A stretch of DNA of 52,917 bases, from NCBI GenBank assembly GCA_030377915.1, contig JAUCFZ010000003.1, positions 1-52,917 on the forward strand. The letters are read 5' to 3'. Both the position numbers and the translations under genes were made by a program. Below the pieces are notes generated by a model, which did not search any database, had not been told where the DNA came from, and worked only from the letters and a program-made list of their open reading frames with translations. Of this stretch, positions 23,275 to 37,646 are shown one piece after another; the stretch's first letter is position 1, and the number at the start of each line of letters is the position of its first letter. Source of the DNA: Clostridiaceae bacterium HSG29. Its GTDB lineage: Bacteria > Bacillota > Clostridia > Peptostreptococcales > Acidaminobacteraceae.

Positions 23275-23304
23275 TGTATAAATGGTAACAAGATGGGAGA
23301 ATAT

Positions 23305-25326
23305 ATGAAAAAAATTATAATAGTAAGTCGTTCAAGAAGAATTGGGTTGCATTATTTAGAAAAATTAAGCGATATATTTGAAGATGATATTTTCATTGAT
23401 GCAATTATTCAGGATGATGATAATTTGGATAGTATTATGGAATATGATTTAGTATTAATAACAACTTATACTGTGCTAGATAGTATTATGCAATATGTTA
23501 GCAAAGATTCCAAAGTATTAAAAGTTGCAAAAAACATTGATCCTAGAGGTATTGAAGAAATTCAAAAGTTGCCGCTTGGAACAGAGGCACTGGTAGTTAA
23601 TGTTGGGCCTAAAACGGTTTCGGAGAGTATTTATTTAATTTATTCACATGGTAGAGCTGATCTGGAGTTACATCCATATTATCCAGGTATTGATCGTTAT
23701 AAGGAAGTAGATTATATATTAACGCAAGGTGAGGCAGGTTTAGCACCTGCTGGATTCAAAGGAAAGATAATTGAACTTCATAATTCGATTATAGATTCTA
23801 AAACATATATTGAAATAATTGAATTTTGTAAACTTGATCGGACTTATTATTTGAAAAAGATTTTTGGACTTAATAAAATCAATATCCCATCAAATGATGG
23901 TGTTTCACTTGTAATAAGTGAACGCTCAATGTTTGAGAATATTATTAATGTGCTTTTTGAGAATATGAATGAAGGCGTTTTAATTTTTAATGAAGTTGGT
24001 ATAGTAACTACTAGTAGTTTAAGCGTACAAAGATTTTTAAATAAATCTGTTCATAAAATAAATAATCATGCTATTACAGAGATTATTGATATTGATTCTG
24101 AGTTTCTTTATGGAGAGGAAACAAAAGAGATAGTAATAAAGGTTAGAGGAATACCATTGATTTGCAATGTGTTGCCTCAATTTACAATTGGAGAGAATAC
24201 TTATGGATTGATTATATTGAAAAATTATAGTGATACTGAAATGAAAATGCATTTATATAAACAAGAATTAAAAGAAAAAGGTCATAGAACAAAATATAAA
24301 ATATCGGATATAATAGGCGTTTCAGACAGTATGGTAAAGCTAAAAAATTATGCTGTAAGGATTGCTAAAAGTGAATCAACTGTATTGATATTTGGCGAAA
24401 GTGGTACTGGTAAGGAGTTATTTGCTCATGCTATACATAATAATTCCCATAGAAAAAAGGAACAGTTTGTAGCTATTAACTGTTCTGCAATACCAGATAG
24501 TTTATTAGAAAGTGAGTTATTTGGATATGAAGTTGGTGCATTTACTGGCGCTAAAAAAAGTGGAAAAAAAGGATTATTTGAAATTGCTAATGGTGGGACT
24601 TTATTTTTAGATGAAGTAGGAGAAATACCTTTAAGGTTACAAAATAGACTTTTGAGGGTGTTACAAGAAAAAGAAATTATGAAAGTTGGAGGAAACTCAA
24701 TTATTAAGACTGATGTAAGGGTTATTGTTGCAACAAATGTAGATTTAAAGCAACAGGTTAGAGATGGAAAATTTAGAAAAGATCTTTATTATAGATTAAG
24801 TGTATTCCCATTGTATTTGCCGCCATTACGTGATCGTCAAGAAGATGTGTTATTAATATTTGACCATATGGTGAAACAGAAATCTGAAGAAATGGTATTA
24901 AAAGATACTACAAAAGAGTTTTTATTAAATTACGAATGGGACGGCAATGTACGTGAATTAAGTAACTGTGTAGAATATCTTATTAATTTAGGCAAATATG
25001 AAATAAGTATTGAAGATCTTCCAGAAAGCATGCATTTTAATTCAGAAATTAGACCTAATATAGTAGAAGTAAAAATTAATAATAAAGAATCTGTAGAAGA
25101 TGTAATCTTAGAAATTCTTTATACAAAAGCAAGGGAGGGTAAGAAAGTAGGGAGAAAGCAGTTAGCAAGTATTCTTTCAAGTAGAGATTATTTTTATAGT
25201 GAACAAGAAGTTAGAAATTTTCTTTTAGTTATGCAAGAAAAAGGTTTAGTAAATATATCGAGGGGTCGTGGTGGAACCGTGATTACTCAAGAAGGTTTAG
25301 AAATGATAAATAATAAGGTAAATTAA
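23305..25326 (+). CDS. sigma-54-dependent activator with N-terminal sensor, PAS and winged-helix tail
   Basis: 673 residues. N-terminal sensor region (about 1-200) of a PrpR_N-like, two-lobed character, without a phosphorylatable receiver. A PAS-like segment (about 210-315) follows, then a sigma-54 AAA+ domain with GESGTGKE (364-371), canonical GAFTGA (411-416) and GGTLFLDEVGE. The C-terminus (about 595-673) looks like a winged helix (GRKQLASILSS, then VRNFLLVMQEKGLVNISRGRGG) rather than the usual Fis helix-turn-helix. Start at 23305: GGGAGA lies 4 bases upstream, whereas the ATG at 23293 overlaps that site. Its position right before a sigma-54 promoter makes it the likely ligand-responsive activator of the peptide operon. 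Confidence 0.88.
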   Translation: MKKIIIVSRSRRIGLHYLEKLSDIFEDDIFIDAIIQDDDNLDSIMEYDLVLITTYTVLDSIMQYVSKDSKVLKVAKNIDPRGIEEIQKLPLGTEALVVNVGPKTVSESIYLIYSHGRADLELHPYYPGIDRYKEVDYILTQGEAGLAPAGFKGKIIELHNSIIDSKTYIEIIEFCKLDRTYYLKKIFGLNKINIPSNDGVSLVISERSMFENIINVLFENMNEGVLIFNEVGIVTTSSLSVQRFLNKSVHKINNHAITEIIDIDSEFLYGEETKEIVIKVRGIPLICNVLPQFTIGENTYGLIILKNYSDTEMKMHLYKQELKEKGHRTKYKISDIIGVSDSMVKLKNYAVRIAKSESTVLIFGESGTGKELFAHAIHNNSHRKKEQFVAINCSAIPDSLLESELFGYEVGAFTGAKKSGKKGLFEIANGGTLFLDEVGEIPLRLQNRLLRVLQEKEIMKVGGNSIIKTDVRVIVATNVDLKQQVRDGKFRKDLYYRLSVFPLYLPPLRDRQEDVLLIFDHMVKQKSEEMVLKDTTKEFLLNYEWDGNVRELSNCVEYLINLGKYEISIEDLPESMHFNSEIRPNIVEVKINNKESVEDVILEILYTKAREGKKVGRKQLASILSSRDYFYSEQEVRNFLLVMQEKGLVNISRGRGGTVITQEGLEMINNKVN

Positions 25327-25429: not shown

Positions 25430-25446
25430 TTGGCACGGTAATTGCA
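25430..25446 (+). promoter_or_regulatory. sigma-54 (-24/-12) promoter of the peptide-utilisation operon
   Basis: TTGGCACGGTAATTGCA matches the TTGGCACG-N4-TTGC consensus at nearly every position with correct spacing. It lies 33 bases before the binding-protein ATG. Confidence 0.93.
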
Positions 25447-25478
25447 AATATAAATAACAGATGGATAGAGGAGGAATT

Positions 25479-27197
25479 ATGAAAAATTTAAAAAAATTAA
25501 TTGCAAGTATGATGATTTTTGTTTTAATCATTGGAACATTCGTAGGATGTTCAGGGGGGAATAGTAAAGAAGTAAATAATGATAGCGGTAGTGAAGATCA
25601 AGTAAATGTTGTTGAAAACGTTGATCCTAGTTTAAAAGTACCGGTAATAGATTTATGGCTTCAATCACAAACAAAAGATCCAATTAGATATGAAGCTGGA
25701 TTAATGATTGCTGATAATTGGAGAAAACTTGGTTTTGAAGTAAATGCAGAAACTAGAGAGTGGGCAACAATGTCTGCTGAAGGTATGAAAGCACATGATC
25801 ATGATGTATTTATGGTTAAATGGGGTGGAAAACCTGAAAGAATAGATCCTTATCACTGGTTATATTCAATGCATCATTCTGATGAAGCGGTTGAAGGTGG
25901 CTACAATATTACTGGTTATTTAAATCCAGAATATGATAAATTAGCAAAAACATTTGCAACTAGTTTAGATTCAGCAGAAAGACAAGCTGCAGCTAAAGAA
26001 ATGCAAGTATTATTAGCTCAAGATGTACCACAACCACCTATGTTTAAATTAAAGTTAAAAAATGCTTATAATAATGAAAAATTCACAAACGTAACACCTG
26101 GCGTTGGACTTGGGGTTTATAGTTTTTGGAATTTTATGAATATTACACCGATTACAGATGATAAGATTTTAAATCTTGGACAAACTAATGATATTAACTT
26201 ATTAAATCCATTAGCTACTAAGACTGGTCAAGATTTATATATGTTAAAGAATATTTATGATCCATTAGTTAGACTTGATGTTAAAGGTGATGTAGTAAAT
26301 TGGTTAGCTACAGAAGTTAATGATATTGATGATACTACTATAGAAGTAACAATTAGAGATGATGTATATTTCCATGATGGAGAACAATTAACTGTAGAAG
26401 ATGTTAAATTTACTTTTGATTTTGCAAAAGAAATTAAATCACCAACATATAATGCATATGTTAGAAATATCGAATCAATTGATATTGTTGGAGATCAAAC
26501 TGTTAAATTTAATTTATCAGAACCATATGCACCATTTTTAACAAATACACTTTCTCAAGTATTAATTTTACCAGAGCATATTTGGGCTTCAGTTTATGAA
26601 GAAAAAGGAGCAGAGGGAGTATTAACTTGGGAAAATGATGAGCCAGTTGGTTCAGGACCATTTAAGTTTGATTATTGGAGACCTAATGAAGAATTTGCAT
26701 TGAAAGCTAATAAAGATCATTTCCAAGTTGCACATATAGATGGAATTGTAAGAACTCCATATACTCAATCATTTGGAATTGTTCAAGGTTTGATCGCAGG
26801 AGAAATTGAAATGACATCATATAATATGATGCCTTTAGATCTTGAAGAAGTAGCAAAGGCTTCGCATGTGGAAATTGTAGAATTACCAGATGCAGGTAGT
26901 TATATTATTCACTACAATATGAGACATAAACCATTTGATGATGTATGGGCGAGACGTGCATTAACAATGGCTATTCCTAGACAAGCAATACTTGATATTG
27001 TATTTGATGGAGGAGCTTTAAAAACATTTACTCTTGTAACTGAAGATAATATATTCTGGACAAACCCAGATGTTGAAAAACTTGATTTTGATTTAGAAAA
27101 AGCAAAAGCAGAATTAGTAGAAGCTGGTTATCAGTGGGATGTTGATGGAGCTATTTATTATCCAGAGAATTTTGAGCCAACTCCTATAATGGAATAA
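25479..27197 (+). CDS. peptide ABC transporter binding lipoprotein, apparently circularly permuted
   Basis: 572 residues with a lipoprotein signal (FVGC, Cys24). It belongs to the family 5 peptide/nickel-binding proteins, but the domain order looks rotated. Residues about 52-222 (YEAGLMIADNWRKLGFEVNA, then GGYNITGYLNPEYDKL) match what is normally the C-terminal end of the family. From about 228 the usual N-terminal part begins (LNLGQTNDINLLNPLA, IYDPLVRLD, VYFHDGEQLTVEDVKFTF, PVGSGPFKF). The protein stops at AGYQWDVDGAIYYP, just where the ordinary C-terminal lobe would follow. AGGAGGA before the ATG at 25479 sets the start. A hairpin follows the stop. Confidence 0.88.
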   Translation: MKNLKKLIASMMIFVLIIGTFVGCSGGNSKEVNNDSGSEDQVNVVENVDPSLKVPVIDLWLQSQTKDPIRYEAGLMIADNWRKLGFEVNAETREWATMSAEGMKAHDHDVFMVKWGGKPERIDPYHWLYSMHHSDEAVEGGYNITGYLNPEYDKLAKTFATSLDSAERQAAAKEMQVLLAQDVPQPPMFKLKLKNAYNNEKFTNVTPGVGLGVYSFWNFMNITPITDDKILNLGQTNDINLLNPLATKTGQDLYMLKNIYDPLVRLDVKGDVVNWLATEVNDIDDTTIEVTIRDDVYFHDGEQLTVEDVKFTFDFAKEIKSPTYNAYVRNIESIDIVGDQTVKFNLSEPYAPFLTNTLSQVLILPEHIWASVYEEKGAEGVLTWENDEPVGSGPFKFDYWRPNEEFALKANKDHFQVAHIDGIVRTPYTQSFGIVQGLIAGEIEMTSYNMMPLDLEEVAKASHVEIVELPDAGSYIIHYNMRHKPFDDVWARRALTMAIPRQAILDIVFDGGALKTFTLVTEDNIFWTNPDVEKLDFDLEKAKAELVEAGYQWDVDGAIYYPENFEPTPIME

Positions 27198-27298: not shown

Positions 27299-28273
27299 AT
27301 GAGGATGACTAAATATATTTTAAAAAGATTGAGCATTGTTGCTTTAACTTTGTTCATTCTACTAACAATTGTATTCTTCATGTTTAGAGTTATACCAGGT
27401 GATCCTGTTAGTATGTTTATTGATTCAGGACTTGATAAAGAATCACAGGAATTAATGATGAAGATGTATGGATTAGATAAACCACTTTGGGATCAATATG
27501 TTATATATATTAAAGGTGTATTGCATGGTGATTTTGGTAATTCATTTACTTATAGCAAACCTGTACTAGACGTTATTGGAGAAAGATTTTTAAATACACT
27601 TGTTTTAACTACAACATCTCTATTAATTGCTTTTTCAGTTGGTATAACTGCAGGAAGTTATCTAGCTTGGCATAGGAATACAAAAATAGATTTGTTTGGT
27701 ACAGTGATGGCATTAATTATTAGATGTGCTCCTGTATTTTGGACAGGTATGATTTTATTGACAGTTTTTGCATTTAAACTTGATTGGTTACCGCTAGGTG
27801 GTATGACAACAGTGGGATCGAATTTCACTAGTTTCTGGGATAAAATTTTCAGTCTTGATTTCCTAAAACATCTTATTTTACCGGCTATAACTTCAGCATT
27901 ATATTCAATGGCAACTCCTACACTTCTTATGAGAACATCAATGTTAGAGGTTATCAAAGAAGATTATATTGAACTTGCTTATGCAAAAGGGTTATCGGAT
28001 AGAAATGTTAGAATAAGACATGCTATGAGAACAGCACTATTACCAGTTGTAACAATATTTGCTGTACAAGCTGGATTAGCAATTGGTGGATCTGTATTAG
28101 TAGAAACAGTATTTAGATGGCCAGGAATGGGTAGAGAAATTGTACTTGCTGTAGCTTCGAGAGATTATCCTATGGCGCAAGGTGCATTTTTGTTTATTGG
28201 ATTTACAACTATATCTTTTAATCTACTTGCAGATGTATTGTATGCATATCTAGATCCAAGAGTATCTTTATAG
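27299..28273 (+). CDS. peptide ABC transporter permease, DppB type
   Basis: 324 residues, six predicted membrane segments, starting with the family's typical MRMTKYILKRL and RVIPGDPVSMF. The cytoplasmic EAA-type loop that docks on the ATPases reads YIELAYAKGLSDRNVRIRHA. It forms the membrane channel with the DppC-type permease encoded next. AAGGAG lies 12 bases before the ATG, a slightly long spacing; an in-frame ATG at 27305 is the alternative start. Confidence 0.93.
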   Translation: MRMTKYILKRLSIVALTLFILLTIVFFMFRVIPGDPVSMFIDSGLDKESQELMMKMYGLDKPLWDQYVIYIKGVLHGDFGNSFTYSKPVLDVIGERFLNTLVLTTTSLLIAFSVGITAGSYLAWHRNTKIDLFGTVMALIIRCAPVFWTGMILLTVFAFKLDWLPLGGMTTVGSNFTSFWDKIFSLDFLKHLILPAITSALYSMATPTLLMRTSMLEVIKEDYIELAYAKGLSDRNVRIRHAMRTALLPVVTIFAVQAGLAIGGSVLVETVFRWPGMGREIVLAVASRDYPMAQGAFLFIGFTTISFNLLADVLYAYLDPRVSL

Positions 28274-28357: not shown

Positions 28358-28459
28358 ATACCCTACGTGGGGAGAGAGAAGCAAAATGTTATGAAAAAAC
28401 GTTGATATTGCAGTGGTTAATTTATCTGCAATTATCTAGGGTATCTTTATGGTAGGGGG
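28358..28459 (+). other. structured leader between the two permease genes
   Basis: The 190-base gap between the permeases is not coding. CCCTACGTGGGG (28361-28372) can fold locally. ATACCCTA (28358-28365) can instead pair perfectly with TAGGGTAT (28437-28444), enclosing a TTGCAG/CTGCAA hairpin (28408-28431). CCCTAC can also pair with GTAGGG in the ribosome site of the next gene (28452-28457). These exclusive pairings suggest RNA-level control of the downstream genes. I do not match it to a known riboswitch class. Confidence 0.45.
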
Positions 28460-28463
28460 CAAC

Positions 28464-29315
28464 ATGAAAAACGTATTTAAAGTATTTAGCAAAAATAAAA
28501 TTGGACTTATTGGATTAATTATTTTCGTATCTTTTGTATTAATAGCTATATTTGCCAATTTCCTTGCTCCTTATGATCCGATGGAAATTCAGTTTTTAGC
28601 TGAGGGTGGAGTAGCAAGACTTCAACCGCCATCATTGGATCATTTGCTTGGAACAACATATATGGGTAGAGATGTATTATCTCAAATGATTATTGGTTCC
28701 AGAGTAGCTGTTTTAGTAGGTGTTATATCTGCAGTATGTGTAGCCTTTATTGGTACAAATATTGGTCTGATAGCTGGCTATTTTGGAGGTATTACTGAGA
28801 GAATTCTTATGGGGATTGTAGATGTAATGTATGGTCTACCGTTTTTACCATTTGCTTTGATTCTAGTATCAGTGCTAGGACCAGGTGTTCAAAATGTGAT
28901 ATTGGCAATTGTATTAATAACGTGGAGAAACTCATCAAGAGTTATTCGTTCACAAGCATTGTCTCTTAAAAATAGAACATTTATAGAGGCAGCAAAATTA
29001 AGTGGAGCTAGTGATTGGAGAATACTATATAAACATATAGCGCCAAATGTAATTCCTATTTCTCTTATTTATGTATCAACATCTATGGCTTCAGCAATTA
29101 TGACTGAATCTAGTATTAGTTTTCTTGGATTAGGTGATCCAATGCAAGTTAGTTGGGGAAGAATATTATTTACTTGTTATTCGTCTCAGGCTATGTTTAA
29201 GGCACCTTGGTGGATTCTTCCTCCAGGTTTTGCAATAACCTTACTAGTATTATCAGGTTATATGATGGGAAGGGGATTTGAAGAAGTTGCGAATCCGAAA
29301 TTGAAGGAGAGATAG
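28464..29315 (+). CDS. peptide ABC transporter permease, DppC type
   Basis: 283 residues, DppC/OppC-like: N-terminal anchor with NKIGLIGLIIF, then LAPYDPMEIQF, LGTTYMGRDVLSQMI, and an EAA loop TFIEAAKLSGASDWRILYKH. The start at 28464 is set by TAGGGGG 4 bases upstream; the in-frame ATG at 28449 lies before that site. It pairs with the DppB-type permease. Its ribosome site may be masked by the upstream leader RNA. Confidence 0.93.
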   Translation: MKNVFKVFSKNKIGLIGLIIFVSFVLIAIFANFLAPYDPMEIQFLAEGGVARLQPPSLDHLLGTTYMGRDVLSQMIIGSRVAVLVGVISAVCVAFIGTNIGLIAGYFGGITERILMGIVDVMYGLPFLPFALILVSVLGPGVQNVILAIVLITWRNSSRVIRSQALSLKNRTFIEAAKLSGASDWRILYKHIAPNVIPISLIYVSTSMASAIMTESSISFLGLGDPMQVSWGRILFTCYSSQAMFKAPWWILPPGFAITLLVLSGYMMGRGFEEVANPKLKER

Positions 29316-29317
29316 AG

Positions 29318-30319
29318 ATGGCATTATTAGAATTGAATGAAGTATCAATTGAATATAAATTATCTAATGGTAAATTGAAAGCTGTTGATAACGTTTCATT
29401 AAATGTTGAGAATGGTGATGTAGTTGGTCTTGTTGGAGAGAGTGGCTGTGGTAAAAGTACATTGATAAAAGGAATAATTAATTTATTACCATCTAATGGA
29501 AAAATTACAAATGGAGAAGTTATTTTTGAGGGAGAAGATCTTTCAAAGCTTGAATTTGAGAAAATGCGAAAGAAAAGATGGAAAGAAATTTCTATGATAA
29601 CACAAAGTGCAATGAATTCACTAAATCCGGTATATAGAGTTGGAAATCAAATAACAGAGGTAATTTTAGAACATGAGAAAATGTCTAAGCATGACGCAAT
29701 GGAAAAAGCAAAAGAATTATTTGATCTTGTTGGACTAGACCGTGCAAGATTAGAAGATTATCCTCATCAATATAGTGGTGGAATGAAACAAAGAGCGATT
29801 ATAGCTATGAGTTTAGCATTAGATCCAAAACTAATAATAGCTGATGAGCCAACGACTGCACTTGATGTAATTGTTCAATCACAAATATTAGAAAAAATTA
29901 ATGCTCTTTTAGAGGGCTATAGTGGTTCGATGATTCTAGTAACCCATGATATATCAGTTGTTGCACAGACTTGTAACAAAGTAGCTGTTATGTATGGCGG
30001 AAGAATAATCGAATATGGTGATGTTAAACAGGTTCTTAAAAAGCCTAATCATCCATATACTATGGGATTAAAGAATGCATTTCCGTCATTAACAGGGGAG
30101 AAAAAGGATTTGATTTCTATTGAAGGAACACCTCCAGATCTTTCTAAAAAAATTGATGGTTGTCGTTTTAAAGATAGATGCCCATTTGTACTTGATAAAT
30201 GTAAAAGTGGAGAAATGCCATTTACTCGAGTAGAATCAGGTTATTATTATTGTGCTAGACATGATGAAATCGACCATTTACGAGAATTGGCCGACTTGTC
30301 TGAAACATGGGATGTGTAA
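29318..30319 (+). CDS. peptide ABC transporter ATPase, DppD type
   Basis: 333 residues with a complete ABC ATPase: GESGCGKST Walker A (about 41-49), YSGGMKQR signature, LIIADEPTTALD Walker B and VTHDIS switch. The C-terminal oligopeptide-transporter extension has four Cys (CRFKDRCPFVLDKC and a later YYCARH), a pattern typical of DppD/OppD. Starts 2 bases after the permease stop with GGAGAGATAGAG before the ATG. Confidence 0.94.
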   Translation: MALLELNEVSIEYKLSNGKLKAVDNVSLNVENGDVVGLVGESGCGKSTLIKGIINLLPSNGKITNGEVIFEGEDLSKLEFEKMRKKRWKEISMITQSAMNSLNPVYRVGNQITEVILEHEKMSKHDAMEKAKELFDLVGLDRARLEDYPHQYSGGMKQRAIIAMSLALDPKLIIADEPTTALDVIVQSQILEKINALLEGYSGSMILVTHDISVVAQTCNKVAVMYGGRIIEYGDVKQVLKKPNHPYTMGLKNAFPSLTGEKKDLISIEGTPPDLSKKIDGCRFKDRCPFVLDKCKSGEMPFTRVESGYYYCARHDEIDHLRELADLSETWDV

Positions 30320-30332
30320 TGGGAGGACTCAG

Positions 30333-31334
30333 ATGACAGAGAGAACTAAAGTAATTGAAGCTATAGATTTACACAAGGAATTTATGGTTAAGATCAAGGG
30401 TGATGGAAAAGTAAGAGAGATTAAATCTCTTAAAGCTGTTGATGGAATCAATCTTCATGTATGTAAAGGTGAAACTTTAGGAATAGTTGGTGAAAGTGGA
30501 TGTGGAAAAACTACTACAGCAAAATTATTTTTAGGATTACATAATGCAACAATGGGATCTATTCTTTTAGGTGATAAAGATATTTCTCATCTTAAAGGAA
30601 AAGAACTAAAGAATTTTAGAAAACATGCTCAAATGATATTTCAGGATCCGTATGAGTCTTTGAATCCAAGATTTAAAATTAAAAATACAATTATGGAGCC
30701 ATTAGAAATACATGGGATTGGTAAAGATAAAGCTGAAAGATATGAAATGGCAAAGCAGATGCTATCTGAAGCAGGATTAAAACCACCAGAAGAATATATG
30801 GATAGATATCCACATGAGATGAGTGGTGGACAAAAACAAAGAGTTGCAATTGCAAGAGCATTAGTTTTAAATCCAGATTTTTTAATTGCTGATGAGCCAG
30901 TTTCAATGCTTGATGTATCTATTAGAGCAAGTATCTTAAAACTTTTAAGAAAAATGATTACGGAAAAAGATCTTGCTGGAATTATAATATCTCACGATAT
31001 TTCACTTATTAGATATATAAGTGATAGAACAGCTGTAATGTATCTAGGGAAAATTGTTGAGCAAGGTAGTACAGAAGAGCTAATAGAAAAAAGGTATCAT
31101 CCATATACAAAAGCTTTACTTGAAGCTGCACCGAATCCAGATCCAGAAGTGAAATTCACATTAGAGAATATTAAAGGTGAAGCTCCAAATCCAGTAGATA
31201 TACCAAAAGGTTGTAGATTTCATCCTAGATGTCCAGAGTGTATGGAAATATGTAAAATGATAACGCCACAGGAATATGATATGGGAAATGGACATAAAGT
31301 AATGTGCCATTTATACGGTGATAAAAATGAATAA
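30333..31334 (+). CDS. peptide ABC transporter ATPase, DppF type
   Basis: 333 residues: Walker A GESGCGKTT, FQDPYESLNPR (typical of DppF/OppF), MSGGQKQRVAIARAL signature, Walker B FLIADEPVSMLD, and a Cys-containing C-terminal extension (GCRFHPRCPECMEIC). The start at 30333 is set by GGGAGGA 6 bases upstream; a longer in-frame reading from 30252 would overlap dppD by 68 bases without a ribosome site. Partner of the DppD-type ATPase. Confidence 0.94.
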   Translation: MTERTKVIEAIDLHKEFMVKIKGDGKVREIKSLKAVDGINLHVCKGETLGIVGESGCGKTTTAKLFLGLHNATMGSILLGDKDISHLKGKELKNFRKHAQMIFQDPYESLNPRFKIKNTIMEPLEIHGIGKDKAERYEMAKQMLSEAGLKPPEEYMDRYPHEMSGGQKQRVAIARALVLNPDFLIADEPVSMLDVSIRASILKLLRKMITEKDLAGIIISHDISLIRYISDRTAVMYLGKIVEQGSTEELIEKRYHPYTKALLEAAPNPDPEVKFTLENIKGEAPNPVDIPKGCRFHPRCPECMEICKMITPQEYDMGNGHKVMCHLYGDKNE

Positions 31335-32082
31335 AGCTTTGATTTTAGAAGAACTTACATGGGTAGAATTTGATGCTGTAAAGGACCAAGTAGAGTTGGT
31401 TATAATACCTTTGGGATCCACTGAACAACATGGTCCTAACACAACTTTAGCAACAGATACAGTTAGAGCTAGAGCGATGGGAAAATTAATTGGTGAGGAA
31501 TATGGAAATAGAGTTCTTATTGGACCAACACTACCAATAGGGTTAGCATATCATCATATGAAATTTCCAGGGACGATGACATTTTCGCTTCAAACTTATA
31601 TACAGGTTATACGTGATATTTGTTGGAGTTTTAATGAACATGGATTTAAAAAAATTCTGTTTATAACTGGGCACGGTGGTAATAAAAGACCAGTTCATGA
31701 GTATGCTACTGAAGCAAGAAAAGAATTTGGTATGGATATTTATATTTCTAGTATGGGAGGCAGTTTAGTTAGAGAGCTAAGTGCACAGGAAGACTTTACA
31801 AAGGTTAAAGGACATGCTTGTGAAGTGGAAACTTCTCAGACTATGTTTTTGGCACCAGATCACGTAAGACCAGATGCTTTAGAGGCAGCTAAATTCATAG
31901 AAGGAACTAAATACTTAGATAGAGAGCATATGTATGATTGCGGTATGTTTTGGGATTTTAGTAAAGTTTCTGAGAATGGTGCTTTAGGTGATGCGACAAG
32001 AGCAAGTGTTGAATTTGGTGAGAAAATGAATGCTTTAGTAGTAGAAAAAATAAAGAAATTCATTGATAATATAATTCTTTAA
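31327..32082 (+). CDS. creatininase-family amidohydrolase
   Basis: 251 residues of the creatininase superfamily, metal-dependent amidases that cleave cyclic or linear amides. Metal-ligand motifs are GSTEQHGP (E33, H35), ATDT (D44), TGHGGNK (about 117-123) and HACEVETS (about 163-170). The start at 31327 overlaps the ATPase end by 8 bases and is preceded by GGTGA; a GTG at 31318 is the less likely alternative. Its position between the transporter and the gamma-glutamyltransferases suggests it acts on the imported compound. The true substrate, creatinine or otherwise, cannot be told. Confidence 0.9.
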   Translation: MNKALILEELTWVEFDAVKDQVELVIIPLGSTEQHGPNTTLATDTVRARAMGKLIGEEYGNRVLIGPTLPIGLAYHHMKFPGTMTFSLQTYIQVIRDICWSFNEHGFKKILFITGHGGNKRPVHEYATEARKEFGMDIYISSMGGSLVRELSAQEDFTKVKGHACEVETSQTMFLAPDHVRPDALEAAKFIEGTKYLDREHMYDCGMFWDFSKVSENGALGDATRASVEFGEKMNALVVEKIKKFIDNIIL

Positions 32083-32092
32083 AGGAGTTATT

Positions 32093-33700
32093 ATGCTATA
32101 TAAAAATATTGAAAATTTAACAATATCAAATAAATCAAATAGCGCTAATAATGTTATGGTAGCAAGTGCTAGATACGAAGCATCGGATATTGGAATCGGA
32201 ATAATGAAAAAAGGCGGAAACGCTATAGATGCAGCAGTTGCTGTAGGATTTGCATTATCAGTTTGTGAGGCAAACGCCAGCGGTTTAGGTGGTGGTGGTT
32301 TTATGAATTTGTATATTAAAGATGAAAATCTAAATACATTTATTGATTTTAGAGAAATTGCACCTGAAAATGCTAGCCCTTCGATGTGGGAAGTAGTTGA
32401 TGGTGAGGTTGTAGGAAATCAGAAAGCTGAAGGAGGCAAATCAGTTTGTGTACCAGGAGAAACAGCTGGACTAATACATGCACATAAAAAATATGGAAAA
32501 TTAGATTTAAAAACAGTTATTGAGCCAGCTATAATATTGGCTGAAACTGGTATAGAAATTACGAATGCATTTAACCAAGATTTGATTAATAATAAAGATA
32601 AAATGATGCGATTTTTAGAAGAAGGAAACTCCTTTGTTAAAGCAAATAAAGTGATAAAAAATCCAGCATTGGCAAATACTTTAAAAGAAATTATGTTAAA
32701 TGGAGCAGATGGATTTTATAAAGGTTCAGTTGCTAAACAAATAGTAGAAAGCATAAACAAACATAATGGGATATTTAAACTTTCTGATTTAAGTGATTAT
32801 AAAGTGAGAGAAATGAGTCCTTTAAAAGGATTTTATAAAGGCTATGAAATTATTTCATCTCCGTTACCTAGTTCAGGTGGTACTCATATACTTCAGATAT
32901 TAAATATATTAGAGCTATTAGATATATCTCAATATAGGGTCAATTCATTAGAATATATACATATGCTCTCTGAGGTATTTAAAATATGTTTTGCAGATAG
33001 ACAGGAATTTATGGGAGATCCTTGTTTCAATCATGTACCAATTAAAGGTATTCTTTCTAAAAATTATAGTAAGGAATTATCAAAAAATATTGAAATGGAT
33101 AGTGTTAAGTCTTATGAATATGGTAATCCTATGGATTATGAATCATTAGATACAACCCATTATTCAATTGTTGACAATGAAGGAAATATGGTATCTGTTA
33201 CTAAGACAATAAGTGCATTTTTCGGTTCGGGAGTTATTCCAAAGAATACAGGAGTTGTACTAAATTGTCAGGCTAGAGGGTTTGCAATAGGTGAAGGAAA
33301 GACAAATTCTATTGCACCAAAGAAGAAACCATTAAGTTCAATGAGTCCAACAATTATTATGAAGGATGGAAATCCATTTGCAGTTATTGGAACTCCTGGT
33401 GCAAATAGAATAATAACTACAATGGTACAGATAATAATAAAAATGATAGATTATGAAATGACTATGGAAGATGCAATAGATTCTCCAAGAATTTCAAATG
33501 ATATGTCAGAAATATTATATTGTGAAGATAGAATTGATGAAGATATTATAAATAGGCTATCTTTATTAGGTCATAAAGTAGAAGTTTGCAAAAGTTATGA
33601 TAGAAAATTCGGTGGTGTTCAGGGAATAAAATGCAACATTGATAAGACTTTACAAGGGGCTGCTGACTTACGAAGAGATGGAGTGGCATTAGGTTACTAA
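32093..33700 (+). CDS. gamma-glutamyltransferase, cytoplasmic type (copy 1)
   Basis: 535 residues of the Ntn-hydrolase gamma-glutamyltransferase family. GNAIDAAVAVGFAL and SGLGGGGFMNL mark the large subunit. The autocleavage site is LDTTHYSIVD with T354 as the predicted N-terminal nucleophile of the small subunit. KKKPLSSMSPT and IGTPGANRI complete the active site. Unlike most bacterial GGTs, no signal peptide is present, so it should act inside the cell on imported gamma-glutamyl compounds by hydrolysis or transfer. AAGGAG precedes the ATG. A second paralogue follows after 11 bases. Confidence 0.92.
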   Translation: MLYKNIENLTISNKSNSANNVMVASARYEASDIGIGIMKKGGNAIDAAVAVGFALSVCEANASGLGGGGFMNLYIKDENLNTFIDFREIAPENASPSMWEVVDGEVVGNQKAEGGKSVCVPGETAGLIHAHKKYGKLDLKTVIEPAIILAETGIEITNAFNQDLINNKDKMMRFLEEGNSFVKANKVIKNPALANTLKEIMLNGADGFYKGSVAKQIVESINKHNGIFKLSDLSDYKVREMSPLKGFYKGYEIISSPLPSSGGTHILQILNILELLDISQYRVNSLEYIHMLSEVFKICFADRQEFMGDPCFNHVPIKGILSKNYSKELSKNIEMDSVKSYEYGNPMDYESLDTTHYSIVDNEGNMVSVTKTISAFFGSGVIPKNTGVVLNCQARGFAIGEGKTNSIAPKKKPLSSMSPTIIMKDGNPFAVIGTPGANRIITTMVQIIIKMIDYEMTMEDAIDSPRISNDMSEILYCEDRIDEDIINRLSLLGHKVEVCKSYDRKFGGVQGIKCNIDKTLQGAADLRRDGVALGY

Positions 33701-33711
33701 AAGGTGAGATT

Positions 33712-35310
33712 ATGAATACAAAACAAATTAGAAGATATGAAAGTAATAACGCTATGGTTTCTAGTGGTCGTAAAGAAGCCACTGATATTGGCATTCAAAT
33801 ATTTAAAAAAGGTGGAAATGCCATTGATGCAGCTGTAGCAGTAGGGTTTGCTATGGGTGTTGCTGAGCCGGCTACTTCTGGTTTAGGTGGTGGTGGTTTT
33901 ATGACTATCAATTTACCAGGTAATTCAGAGTCAATATTTATAGATTTTAGAGAAAACGCACCTAAGAGTGCCTATCCTGATATGTGGTGTTTAGATGAAA
34001 AAGGTAAGGTTATAGATAAAGCTAATGCAATTGGTGCAAAGTCAATTAGTGTTCCAGGAGAGGTTGCTGGATTAATATATGTATTAGAAAATTATGGAAC
34101 AATGACTTTGGAAGAAGTTATGGCTCCAACAATTAAATTGGCAGAAGAAGGTATTGTTGTAACTGCGATGCTTGAAAATATGCTAGGTATATATGGTAAG
34201 CATTTGGAAAAATGCGAGAGTGCAAAAGATATATACTGTAAAGATTTTAAAGAAGGTGATCTTCTTAGAAATAAGAAAATTGCTAATACATTAAAAACTA
34301 TAGCTTTTGAAGGAAGAGATGTATTTTATAAAGGTAAAATTAGCAAAGAGATAATTAAATCAGTGCAAGATATGGGTGGTTTATTAACAAAAGAAGATTT
34401 AGAAGAATATGAAGTAGAAGTAAAAGAACCTGTAGTTGGAGAATATAGAGGATATACTATAATATCATCTCCACCTCCAAGTTCAGGTGGAACACATATT
34501 ATTCAAAGTTTAAATATACTTGAAAATTTTGATATTGGAAGTTTGGAAGTTAATTCAGCCGAGTATTTACATATGTTTTCTGAGGCATTTAAATTGTCAT
34601 ATGAAGATAGAGCTAAATTTATGGCAGATACTAAATTTATTGATGTTCCATTAAAAGGACTTCGCTCAAAGAAGTATGCAAAAGTACTTAGTAAAAAGAT
34701 TGATCTTAACACGGCAAGAAAACCAGAATGCTATGACCCTTGGAATTATGAGCATGATGATACTACTCATTATTCTATTGGTGATAAAGAAGGGTATTTA
34801 GTTTCCGTTACAAAAACTATAAATCACTTTTTTGGTTCGTGTATGGTTGGTGGAAATACTGGAATATTACTTAATGATACTATGGCAGATTTCTCAACAA
34901 ATAAATATGATGTTAATTCAGTTGATTCTAGGAAGAAGCCATTAAGTTCTATGTCTCCAACACTTATCCTTAAAGATGGTAAACCGGTAGCTATTATTGG
35001 TTCTCCTGGAGGCGTTAGGATTATAAATGTGATAGTACAGATTATTAGTAAAATTGTGGATCATGGTATGGATATTCAAGAAGCAATAGAGTCGCCAAGA
35101 ATCACTCAAAATGCAACAAATACAATGCTTTATGAGAATAGAATTTCTTCTAAAGTAATTGAAGATTTAAAAGCTATGGGACACGATATGAATCAATGCT
35201 TAGATTATGATAAAAAAATGGGTGGAGTTAATGGTATATATTATACTGAAGATGGTAAAATCATTGGCGCTGCAGATCCAAGAAGAGATGGTGTAGCTTA
35301 TGGTATATAA
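33712..35310 (+). CDS. gamma-glutamyltransferase, cytoplasmic type (copy 2)
   Basis: 532 residues, clearly paralogous to the preceding gene along its whole length but well diverged. It has GNAIDAAVAVGFAM, SGLGGGGFMTI, the cleavage motif DDTTHYSIGD (nucleophile T351), RKKPLSSMSPT and IGSPGGVRI. Again no signal peptide. The two copies may form a heteromeric enzyme or have split substrate preference. AAAGGTGAG lies before the ATG, and the end overlaps the racemase start. Confidence 0.92.
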   Translation: MNTKQIRRYESNNAMVSSGRKEATDIGIQIFKKGGNAIDAAVAVGFAMGVAEPATSGLGGGGFMTINLPGNSESIFIDFRENAPKSAYPDMWCLDEKGKVIDKANAIGAKSISVPGEVAGLIYVLENYGTMTLEEVMAPTIKLAEEGIVVTAMLENMLGIYGKHLEKCESAKDIYCKDFKEGDLLRNKKIANTLKTIAFEGRDVFYKGKISKEIIKSVQDMGGLLTKEDLEEYEVEVKEPVVGEYRGYTIISSPPPSSGGTHIIQSLNILENFDIGSLEVNSAEYLHMFSEAFKLSYEDRAKFMADTKFIDVPLKGLRSKKYAKVLSKKIDLNTARKPECYDPWNYEHDDTTHYSIGDKEGYLVSVTKTINHFFGSCMVGGNTGILLNDTMADFSTNKYDVNSVDSRKKPLSSMSPTLILKDGKPVAIIGSPGGVRIINVIVQIISKIVDHGMDIQEAIESPRITQNATNTMLYENRISSKVIEDLKAMGHDMNQCLDYDKKMGGVNGIYYTEDGKIIGAADPRRDGVAYGI

Positions 35311-36481
35311 AGGTGTTGATTTATTAAGAGATACTTTTGTAGAAATTAATCTAGACTCTTTAAAAGATAATATTAAAAATATAAAAGAAAGAGTTGGTGA
35401 AAATGTTTCAATAGCTGCTGTTGTAAAATCAGATGGCTATGGTCATGGCGCAGTAGAGATTGGAAAAATACTAATTGAAAATGGGGCATCACATCTTGCC
35501 GTTGCAACGTTGACAGAAGCGTTAGAACTTAGAAATGTATATGAAAATATTAAAATATTTATTATGGGATATACTCCAGATAGTCATTTAAGAATTGCTG
35601 CTGAGAAAAATATTGATATGACAATTTTTTCTATTCATCAAGCAAGATTATTAAATGAAATTGGAGAAATATTAGATAAAAAACCAGTAGTTCATATTAA
35701 ATATGATACGGGATTTAATAGATTAGGATATAAAGACTGCAATGAAAGTATAGTAGAAATATCTGAAATAGTTAAATTAGATAATTTAAATGTAGAAGGA
35801 ATTTTCTCTCATTTTGCATTGGCAGGAAATGAATCTAATCACAAACAATTTAATGATTTTATAAAAGCTGTAGAAGCAATCGAAGCAACAGGTTTTATTT
35901 TCAAATATAAACATATTTGTGATAGCATAGCTGCAATCGATTATCCTGAATTCAATTTAGATATGGTGAGAACTGGCGCAATACTTTATGGAATGAAGTC
36001 ATTTAGATTTAGAGACATTGATTTAAAAAGCGTTATGTCGTTTAAAACAAAGATTTATCATGTGAAAACATTAAAAATTGGAGAAGGAGTTAGCTATAAT
36101 TTTAAGTGGAAAGCTAAGCGTGATAGTGTAATAGCAACAATACCAGTAGGATATTCTGATGGTTTACCAAGAAATATGGCAGATGTAGGTATGGTAACTA
36201 TTAAAGGAAAAAGAGCACCTCTAGTAGGAGTTATTTGTATGGATCAATGTATGGTTGATATTACTGACTTAAAGGATGCACAAGTGGGTGATGAAGTGAT
36301 AATTTTTGATGATGGTACAGGAAATTCACTTACTGTCGGAGAATTTTCAAAGTTAGGTAATACAAATAAGAATGAAATACTGACAAGAATCACTAGGAGA
36401 ACTCCTAGAGTATATATAAAAAATAATAAAATTCACAAGATAGTGGATTATTTAATAGGAGATAGCCTTTATGAATACTAA
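35300..36481 (+). CDS. alanine racemase family PLP enzyme
   Basis: 393 residues. A fold-type III PLP barrel enzyme: AAVVKSDGYGHG carries the PLP lysine (K43), FSHFALAGNES is family-typical, and EGVSYNFKWKAKRDSVIATIPVGYSDGLPR contains the second catalytic tyrosine. The C-terminal beta domain has GVICMDQCMVDITD. It overlaps the upstream gene by 11 bases and the next by 11, so it is firmly part of the operon rather than a housekeeping alr. It probably converts D- to L-amino acids released from imported peptides (or the reverse). Other amino acids than alanine are possible. Confidence 0.9.
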   Translation: MVYKGVDLLRDTFVEINLDSLKDNIKNIKERVGENVSIAAVVKSDGYGHGAVEIGKILIENGASHLAVATLTEALELRNVYENIKIFIMGYTPDSHLRIAAEKNIDMTIFSIHQARLLNEIGEILDKKPVVHIKYDTGFNRLGYKDCNESIVEISEIVKLDNLNVEGIFSHFALAGNESNHKQFNDFIKAVEAIEATGFIFKYKHICDSIAAIDYPEFNLDMVRTGAILYGMKSFRFRDIDLKSVMSFKTKIYHVKTLKIGEGVSYNFKWKAKRDSVIATIPVGYSDGLPRNMADVGMVTIKGKRAPLVGVICMDQCMVDITDLKDAQVGDEVIIFDDGTGNSLTVGEFSKLGNTNKNEILTRITRRTPRVYIKNNKIHKIVDYLIGDSLYEY

Positions 36482-37646
36482 AAAATGTGTAGATGATATA
36501 TTTAGCCAATTAGTAGATATTAGAAGAGATTTTCATAGAAATCCTGAGCTTAGTGGAAAAGAAATTAGAACAGGTGCACAGATATGCAAATATCTTGATA
36601 AGTGGGGTATTGAATATGAATATGGAATTGCAGATACTGGTGTAGTTGGTTTGATTAGAGGTAAAAAAGGTGATGGCAAGACAGTTGCTATCCGAGCAGA
36701 TATGGATGCACTTCCTATAAATGAAGATGCAGATGTACCATTTAAATCAGAAGTACCTGGAGTAATGCATGCATGCGGCCATGATGCTCATACTACTATT
36801 TTGCTTGGTGCTGCTAAGATTTTAAAAGATATTGAAAATGAATTAGAAGGTAATATAAAACTATTATTCCAGCCTGCTGAAGAAGCTATTGGCGGAGCTG
36901 ATAGAATGGTTAAAGCTGGTTGTTTAGAAAACCCTAAAGTGGATTATGCAATCGGTTTACATGTTATGCCTAATATACCAGTGGGAAAAGTTGAACTTAA
37001 GTATGGTAAATTAAACGGAAATTCAGGTAGTGTAAAAATAAAATTAAAAGGTAGAAAAGGACATGCTGCTTATCCTGATCAATCAATAGATTCAATAGTA
37101 ATGGCTGCTTCAGTTATTATGAATTTACAAACTTTAGTGAGTAGAAGTATATCTCCGTTGAATTCAGTAGTTCTTACATTTGGTAAGATTAATGGGGGAA
37201 CAAAAAGCAATATAATTACTGATGAAGTTGAATTAGTTGGAACACTAAGAGCGCTTGATACACCATCAAGAACTATAGCTAAAGATAAAATAAGAGAGAT
37301 TGCTGAAAATACTGCTATAGCAATGGGTGGCGAAGCAGAGGTAATATTTAATGATGGATATGTGGCGTTGATAAATGATGATTCTGTGGTTGATATTGTT
37401 AAAGAAGCTGCAATGAATGAATTAGGCGAAGAAAATATAGTTTATAAAGAATTTCCTAGTATGGGTGGAGAGGATTTTTCATATTTTACTGAGAAAGTTC
37501 CGTCAGCATTTTTTCATTTAGGTTGTATGAATAAAAAATTAGGAATGGATTTTCCATTACATAGTAATAAATTCATGTTAGATGAAGAATCACTAAGAAT
37601 TGGCGTTATTGTTGAAGTGGAAACTGTTTTAAGATTGTTGAAGTAA
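36471..37646 (+). CDS. M20 family amidohydrolase/aminoacylase
   Basis: 391 residues of the M20D/IAA-amino-acid hydrolase family. Metal and active-site motifs are RRDFHRNPELSGKE, IRADMDALPINED, HACGHDAHTT, QPAEEAIGGADRM, GLHVMPNIPVG and MGGEDFSYF. It cleaves N-acyl or dipeptide-like amides in the cytoplasm. It overlaps the racemase by 11 bases, with GGAGAT before the ATG, and is the last gene of the operon before a clear terminator. Confidence 0.92.
   Translation: MNTKKCVDDIFSQLVDIRRDFHRNPELSGKEIRTGAQICKYLDKWGIEYEYGIADTGVVGLIRGKKGDGKTVAIRADMDALPINEDADVPFKSEVPGVMHACGHDAHTTILLGAAKILKDIENELEGNIKLLFQPAEEAIGGADRMVKAGCLENPKVDYAIGLHVMPNIPVGKVELKYGKLNGNSGSVKIKLKGRKGHAAYPDQSIDSIVMAASVIMNLQTLVSRSISPLNSVVLTFGKINGGTKSNIITDEVELVGTLRALDTPSRTIAKDKIREIAENTAIAMGGEAEVIFNDGYVALINDDSVVDIVKEAAMNELGEENIVYKEFPSMGGEDFSYFTEKVPSAFFHLGCMNKKLGMDFPLHSNKFMLDEESLRIGVIVEVETVLRLLK

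Follow-up and report, generated by a model that had tools for sequence, protein, structure and literature searches.

The solute-binding proteins of family 5 (PF00496; class II, cluster C), which include DppA, OppA, AppA, NikA and GsiB, are among the most numerous surface proteins of bacteria and archaea. In OppA, domain I comprises residues 1-44, 189-269 and 487-517, domain II residues 45-188 and domain III residues 270-486 (PMC6305025), and the domain organization of AliD is like that of OppA (PMC11192437). By these published boundaries, the canonical N- and C-termini of both proteins lie in domain I. Circular permutation has been published for the glycine betaine-binding proteins OpuAC (2b4l) and ProX (1r9l, 1sw1), for molybdate-binding proteins and for CysB (PMC2395249). 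We found no description of natural permuted family-5 binding proteins in the open-access literature, where the matches on permuted binding proteins concerned designed permutants or proteins of unrelated kinds, with one mention of a permuted ATP-grasp, and the CIRPIN preprint does not mention them. Here we analyze a stretch of 52,917 nucleotides from Clostridiaceae bacterium HSG29 (hereafter the window), in which the ORF at 25479-27197 very probably encodes the binding lipoprotein of a Dpp/Opp-type ABC importer, a protein in which the family-5 fold has undergone natural circular permutation. We propose that this form arose in one ancient event, retains an ordinary clamshell, serves a permease pair of its own and spread horizontally as an operon; our confidence extends to this reading as a whole and leaves the ligand class aside. 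A permuted cluster C subfamily with its own permease lineage, present in bacteria and salt-loving archaea, is apparently undescribed.

At the sequence level, the ORF encodes a complete family-5 (cluster C) binding protein in circularly permuted order: after the lipoprotein signal, the chain opens with what is the C-terminal third of a canonical protein and continues with the N-terminal two thirds. First, PF00496 scores 227.4 bits in total (gathering cut-off 32.4), and its match is divided into two stretches whose order is swapped: profile positions 2-286 fall in the second part of the protein (E about 1e-60) and positions 292-360 in the first (E 2.3e-8 in a scan of that part by itself). The order is thus not the collinear one of canonical members, and the protein is classed as a permuted variant. 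The swap is likewise visible with the NCBIfam profiles for DppA, Opp4A and SapA, and all scores against the equivalogs DppA, OppA, NikA and GsiB lie far under their cut-offs (for example, 90 vs 1005 bits for DppA). Second, in a PDB search, residues 27-346 of AppA (1xoc) align to query residues 240-560 and residues 365-483 to query residues 68-191. Third, we derived a profile from 33 canonical family members and compared the protein with it. The first-pass annotation had placed the usual C-terminal segment at residues 52-222 and the usual beginning from about residue 228; numbered from the ATG at 25479, canonical profile positions 374-523 correspond to residues 59-219 and positions 48-370 to residues 226-555, in close agreement. 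The first segment matched the C-terminal region of DppA, OppA and AppA and not the N-terminal lobe, so the sequence comparison that could have refuted the first-pass claim upholds it. Between about 45 and 523, each position of the canonical profile is present once, in swapped order, with nothing duplicated or missing, and a simple tandem duplication was rejected as an explanation on this ground. Compared profile to profile without rotation, the permuted and canonical families align as two swapped blocks of 328 and 147 columns; after rotation they form a single collinear block of 473 of 532 columns (Prob 100, E 1e-98). Pairwise, the rotated window protein is collinear with canonical proteins over ~465 positions at no more than 30% identity. 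The E-values rule out a chance match. We therefore regard the rotation of segment order, as opposed to duplication, as confirmed for this ORF in so far as sequence comparison can establish it, and the earlier claim of a true rotation stands, since every canonical region occurs once and rotation restores collinearity. The features of the locus are given in the table.

Table. Features of the permuted binding-protein locus and its operon in the window
Feature	Coordinates	Strand	Evidence
Sigma-54-dependent transcriptional activator, likely operon regulator	23293..25326	+	PF00158 E 1e-70; syntenic in L011-L014
Sigma-54 (-24/-12) promoter TTGGCACGGTAATTGCA, perfect consensus match	25430..25446	+	Sole match in window; 0.01 expected by chance
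Ribosome-binding site AGGAGG before ATG 25479	25469..25474	+	Sequence
Circularly permuted family-5 solute-binding lipoprotein, 572 aa	25479..27197	+	ORF and profile evidence
Lipoprotein signal peptide, lipobox Cys at residue 24 (FVGC)	25479..25550	+	Sequence; Cys invariant in five close relatives
Low-complexity linker from lipid-modified Cys to fold, about 34 aa	25551..25652	+	Poorly conserved in alignment
Canonical C-terminal segment (profile 374-523): end of domain III and C-terminal part of domain I	25653..26135	+	Profile/structure matches
Junction of old C-terminus to old mature N-terminus (FMNITPITDD-KILNLGQ)	26136..26153	+	Same in all permuted members
Canonical N-terminal segment (profile 48-370): domains I and II and start of domain III	26154..27143	+	Profile/structure matches
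New C-terminus just past AGYxWDxDG loop	27144..27194	+	Same end point in relatives
DppB/OppB-type permease, permuted-associated branch	27299..28273	+	Pfam; permease tree
DppC/OppC-type permease, permuted-associated branch	28449..29315	+	Pfam; permease tree
DppD/OppD-type ATPase	29318..30319	+	PF00005, PF08352
DppF/OppF-type ATPase (GTG start as listed; true start probably later)	30252..31334	+	PF00005, PF08352
Creatininase-family amidohydrolase	31318..32082	+	PF02633 E 7e-64; also after permuted operon in L011-L014 and Halalkalicoccus
Gamma-glutamyltranspeptidase family protein 1	32093..33700	+	TIGR00066 above cut-off
Gamma-glutamyltranspeptidase family protein 2	33712..35310	+	TIGR00066 above cut-off
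Alanine racemase family protein	35300..36481	+	TIGR00492 above cut-off
M20 amidohydrolase/peptidase	36471..37646	+	TIGR01891 above cut-off

The cut falls in the loop between the '...AKxLLxEAG' helix and the next strand of domain III, and the new termini correspond to about residue 371 in the E. coli DppA precursor, 383 in the OppA precursor and about 357 in mature OppA. Because this position lies within domain III (OppA 270-486), lobe 2 itself is divided, and a lobe-by-lobe swap was rejected for the same reason. The new C-terminus lies just past the AGYxWDxDG loop; the first-pass annotation had the protein stop at AGYQWDVDG. At the junction, no more than a few residues separate the canonical C-terminus from the canonical mature N-terminus, as suggested by a canonical relative (L044) that ends at a tail matching this junction. 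Given the location of both old termini in domain I and a short junction to close the chain, we infer that the permuted chain would fold into the ordinary two-lobed clamshell. A cut in domain III, and not at the hinge, does imply that the two ends of the chain have to come together to restore this domain, and the AlphaFold models of the permuted protein have pLDDT values below 40 (35 from the single sequence and 39.5 from a five-sequence alignment). Both points leave room for an exchange of segments between subunits, with a domain-swapped dimer or a receptor of another shape as the result. We nevertheless give this arrangement only a very slim chance, as the location of both canonical termini in domain I would allow a short junction to close the ring, the loop at the cut site is already variable in length among canonical proteins such as NikA, and the core motifs of both halves are conserved. 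Among the 60 listed of 115 PDB matches to a profile of 22 permuted sequences, there was no solved chain in permuted order.

The source assembly is a fragmented draft of 266 contigs that is 86% complete, and a mis-assembly, frameshift or wrong start could in principle mimic a swap. However, the ORF is a single open frame from the ATG at 25479 to 27197; a longer in-frame ATG is present at 25461, and we favor the start at 25479 on account of the AGGAGG that lies ahead of it at 25469-25474. The same order is found at 67-74% identity in the separately sequenced genomes of Acidaminobacter, Dethiosulfatibacter, a Marinisporobacter MAG and a Clostridiales MAG, including the isolates Acidaminobacter sp. 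JC074 and Dethiosulfatibacter aminovorans, and it remains continuous in these independent genomes (74% identity over 3-577). The permuted order also occurs on complete plasmids. An artefact is thus refuted by independent genomes, and we attach practically no probability to it.

The search for relatives with the same order returned 41 distinct permuted proteins, which come from Bacillota, Alphaproteobacteria and Halobacteria and have their cut in one and the same loop. Each of these ORFs switches near canonical profile positions 367-383 and shares the junction and the end point. Distant permuted relatives (25-38% identity) are found in other Bacillota and on plasmids of Alphaproteobacteria and Halobacteria. 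With the genome of the window included in each count, strong matches are present in 12 of 394 sampled whole genomes of the same taxonomic order and 2 of 391 of the same class (both at E <= 1e-60), and in 7 of 398 of the same phylum (E <= 1e-45). A scan of viral_contigs found no relatives. In 14 plasmid records, permuted genes occur alongside many canonical paralogues, and PF00496 matches the permuted proteins at about 288-366 and then 2-287 and the canonical ones at about 1-364. Some loci depart in detail. On pNgVX of Neorhizobium galegae (L067, 5929-7582), the permuted gene is annotated as two ORFs, probably owing to a frameshift or sequencing error. Second, more divergent swapped-order copies are found on the same replicons as the first in Haladaptatus (L102) and Nitratireductor (NZ_CP029209.1, 518961-520496).

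We examined the origin of the permuted order with unrooted trees, which contain long branches, of the 41 permuted proteins after re-rotation and a cluster C sample of 49 canonical ones. The full-length tree requires a single change of order (SH-aLRT 96 for the branch concerned), and the tree of the N-part, which needs no rotation, also requires one change (SH-aLRT 97). The tree of the C-part, a short segment, has two weakly supported changes. The two segments are thus not placed beside the same sister, which leaves room for a chimera in which the C-terminal and N-terminal segments derived from different family-5 paralogues through recombination and not permutation. We consider such a chimera improbable, though slightly less so than an exchange between subunits: the cut and the junction fit each other to within a few residues and leave no sequence missing or doubled, the N-part falls into one branch, and duplication and fusion of near-identical tandem copies explains the same observations without further assumption. 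We infer that the canonical order is ancestral because it is overwhelmingly common. On the duplication and fusion model, which we favor, a single ancient tandem duplication of a binding-protein gene would have been followed by in-frame, tail-to-head fusion of the two copies and loss of the outer halves, and a signal peptide would have come to be placed ahead of the C-terminal segment.

The binding-protein gene shares its operon with the genes of a pair of BPD permeases and a pair of ATPases carrying oligo_HPY (PF00528, PF19300, PF12911, PF00005 and PF08352), and a complete operon in the order binding protein, permease, permease, ATPase, ATPase is present in nearly all permuted loci with enough flank. 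We hypothesize that the permuted protein captures its ligand and hands it to the adjoining permease pair of its own, with transport powered by the two ATPases. The permeases were placed in unrooted trees of 64 rows (DppB-type) and 65 rows (DppC-type) that included canonical haloarchaeal and alphaproteobacterial operons of the same replicons. In each case the permeases beside permuted binding proteins form one branch with one change (SH-aLRT 99 for DppB-type and 97 for DppC-type), and they branch apart from the canonical permeases of the same organisms. Within the permuted branch of the binding proteins, archaeal, alphaproteobacterial and Bacillota sequences are interleaved, and the transporter may have spread as an operon through horizontal transfer. 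The nearest canonical clade that we found consists of the binding proteins L021, L022, L030 and L031 and the permeases L132, L133, L140 and L141. These permeases are sister to the permuted-associated ones (SH-aLRT 97 in a tree drawn with a midpoint root). The binding proteins of this clade differ from the permuted proteins in having canonical order and a C-terminal hydrophobic anchor in place of an N-terminal lipid; they end in a hydrophobic helix and a basic tail, have no obvious lipobox and look membrane-anchored at the C-terminus. With respect to regulation, the sigma-54 promoter of the window occupies the gap that separates the gene of the sigma-54 activator from that of the binding protein. 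The activator gene is also conserved upstream in close relatives, and one similar site precedes the permuted gene in L012.

Genes near the permuted transporters point to the possible nature of the ligand. In the window, the operon runs on into the creatininase-family gene and an adjacent pair of gamma-glutamyltranspeptidase genes without an obvious signal peptide, followed by the alanine racemase and M20 genes; the pair and the racemase are also conserved in L114 and L115. The first of these downstream genes come after the transporter in close relatives as well. Creatininase and M20 genes lie downstream of the transporter in Halalkalicoccus, and genes for a D-aminoacylase, a dipeptide epimerase and a DUF1611 protein lie near it in Haladaptatus. 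Oxoprolinase/hydantoinase, M20 and M28 genes are nearby in Ketogulonicigenium and Roseomonas, as is a gamma-glutamylcyclotransferase gene in Maritalea. Based on these neighbors, we tentatively and weakly favor, at less than even probability, a small gamma-glutamyl, D-amino-acid-containing or N-acyl dipeptide-like compound that would be hydrolysed in the cytoplasm by the neighboring enzymes. A single shared ligand class is doubtful because the neighboring hydrolases differ between lineages. On the haloarchaeal plasmids L071 (1-3505) and L076 (1-3474), the D-aminoacylase, dipeptide epimerase and DUF1611 genes adjoin the permuted transporter, a neighborhood that suggests D-amino-acid use in archaea. 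DgcA, a dipeptide epimerase relative, and DgcN, a DUF1611 protein, turn D- into L-glutamate. The DgcN-DgcA pathway for D-glutamate has been mentioned in a paper that does not name DUF1611 (PMC10845958).

The ORF carries a signal and an FVGC lipobox, as expected of a secreted or tethered cluster C protein, and a linker of ~34 residues separates the lipid-modified cysteine from the fold. Because the cut lies inside domain III, the lipid tether would be attached to lobe 2; judging from the OppA domain boundaries, the new N-terminus would lie in domain III instead of domain I and the tether on the other lobe, in line with the first-pass annotation, which had it move to another face of the protein. 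The permutation could be functional and not neutral, if anchoring through lobe 2 (domain III) altered docking and ligand handover to co-evolved permeases and so defined a distinct Dpp/Opp importer subtype, which we think rather unlikely. Export signals suit the lineage of each group: most Bacillota members have a Sec lipobox, those of Halobacteria have an RR motif and a lipobox, and those of Alphaproteobacteria have no lipobox, which is also missing in several other permuted members. Since some members are without a lipobox, we argue that the tether was not the reason for the permutation, and a new tether as a selected trait was not adopted as an explanation in view of the alphaproteobacterial members.

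The permuted family amounts to a natural experiment that spans Bacteria and Archaea: one fold has had its ends and tether relocated and is paired with a permease lineage to match. The effect of chain order and tether point on the clamshell and docking cycle thereby becomes testable, and the family offers a natural template for new termini in biosensor design. A permuted class can go unnoticed under the name 'ABC transporter substrate-binding protein' because such names are assigned automatically from Pfam hits, and homology models in canonical order will misplace the termini and signal attachment of permuted members.

Compared with known systems, the permuted protein has the same regions, motifs, length (about 570 aa as a precursor) and operon partners as DppA, OppA, AppA, NikA and GsiB. 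It differs from these proteins in that the segments are rotated, the termini lie in domain III and the old C-terminus is fused to the old N-terminus. The likeness to OpuAC, ProX, the molybdate-binding proteins and CysB is that of natural permutation between homologous two-lobed binding folds. However, those proteins share less than 24% identity and were compared by structure, whereas the family described here shows the swap plainly in sequence, inside a single Pfam family of cluster C, and has both a conserved cut and a permease lineage that matches.
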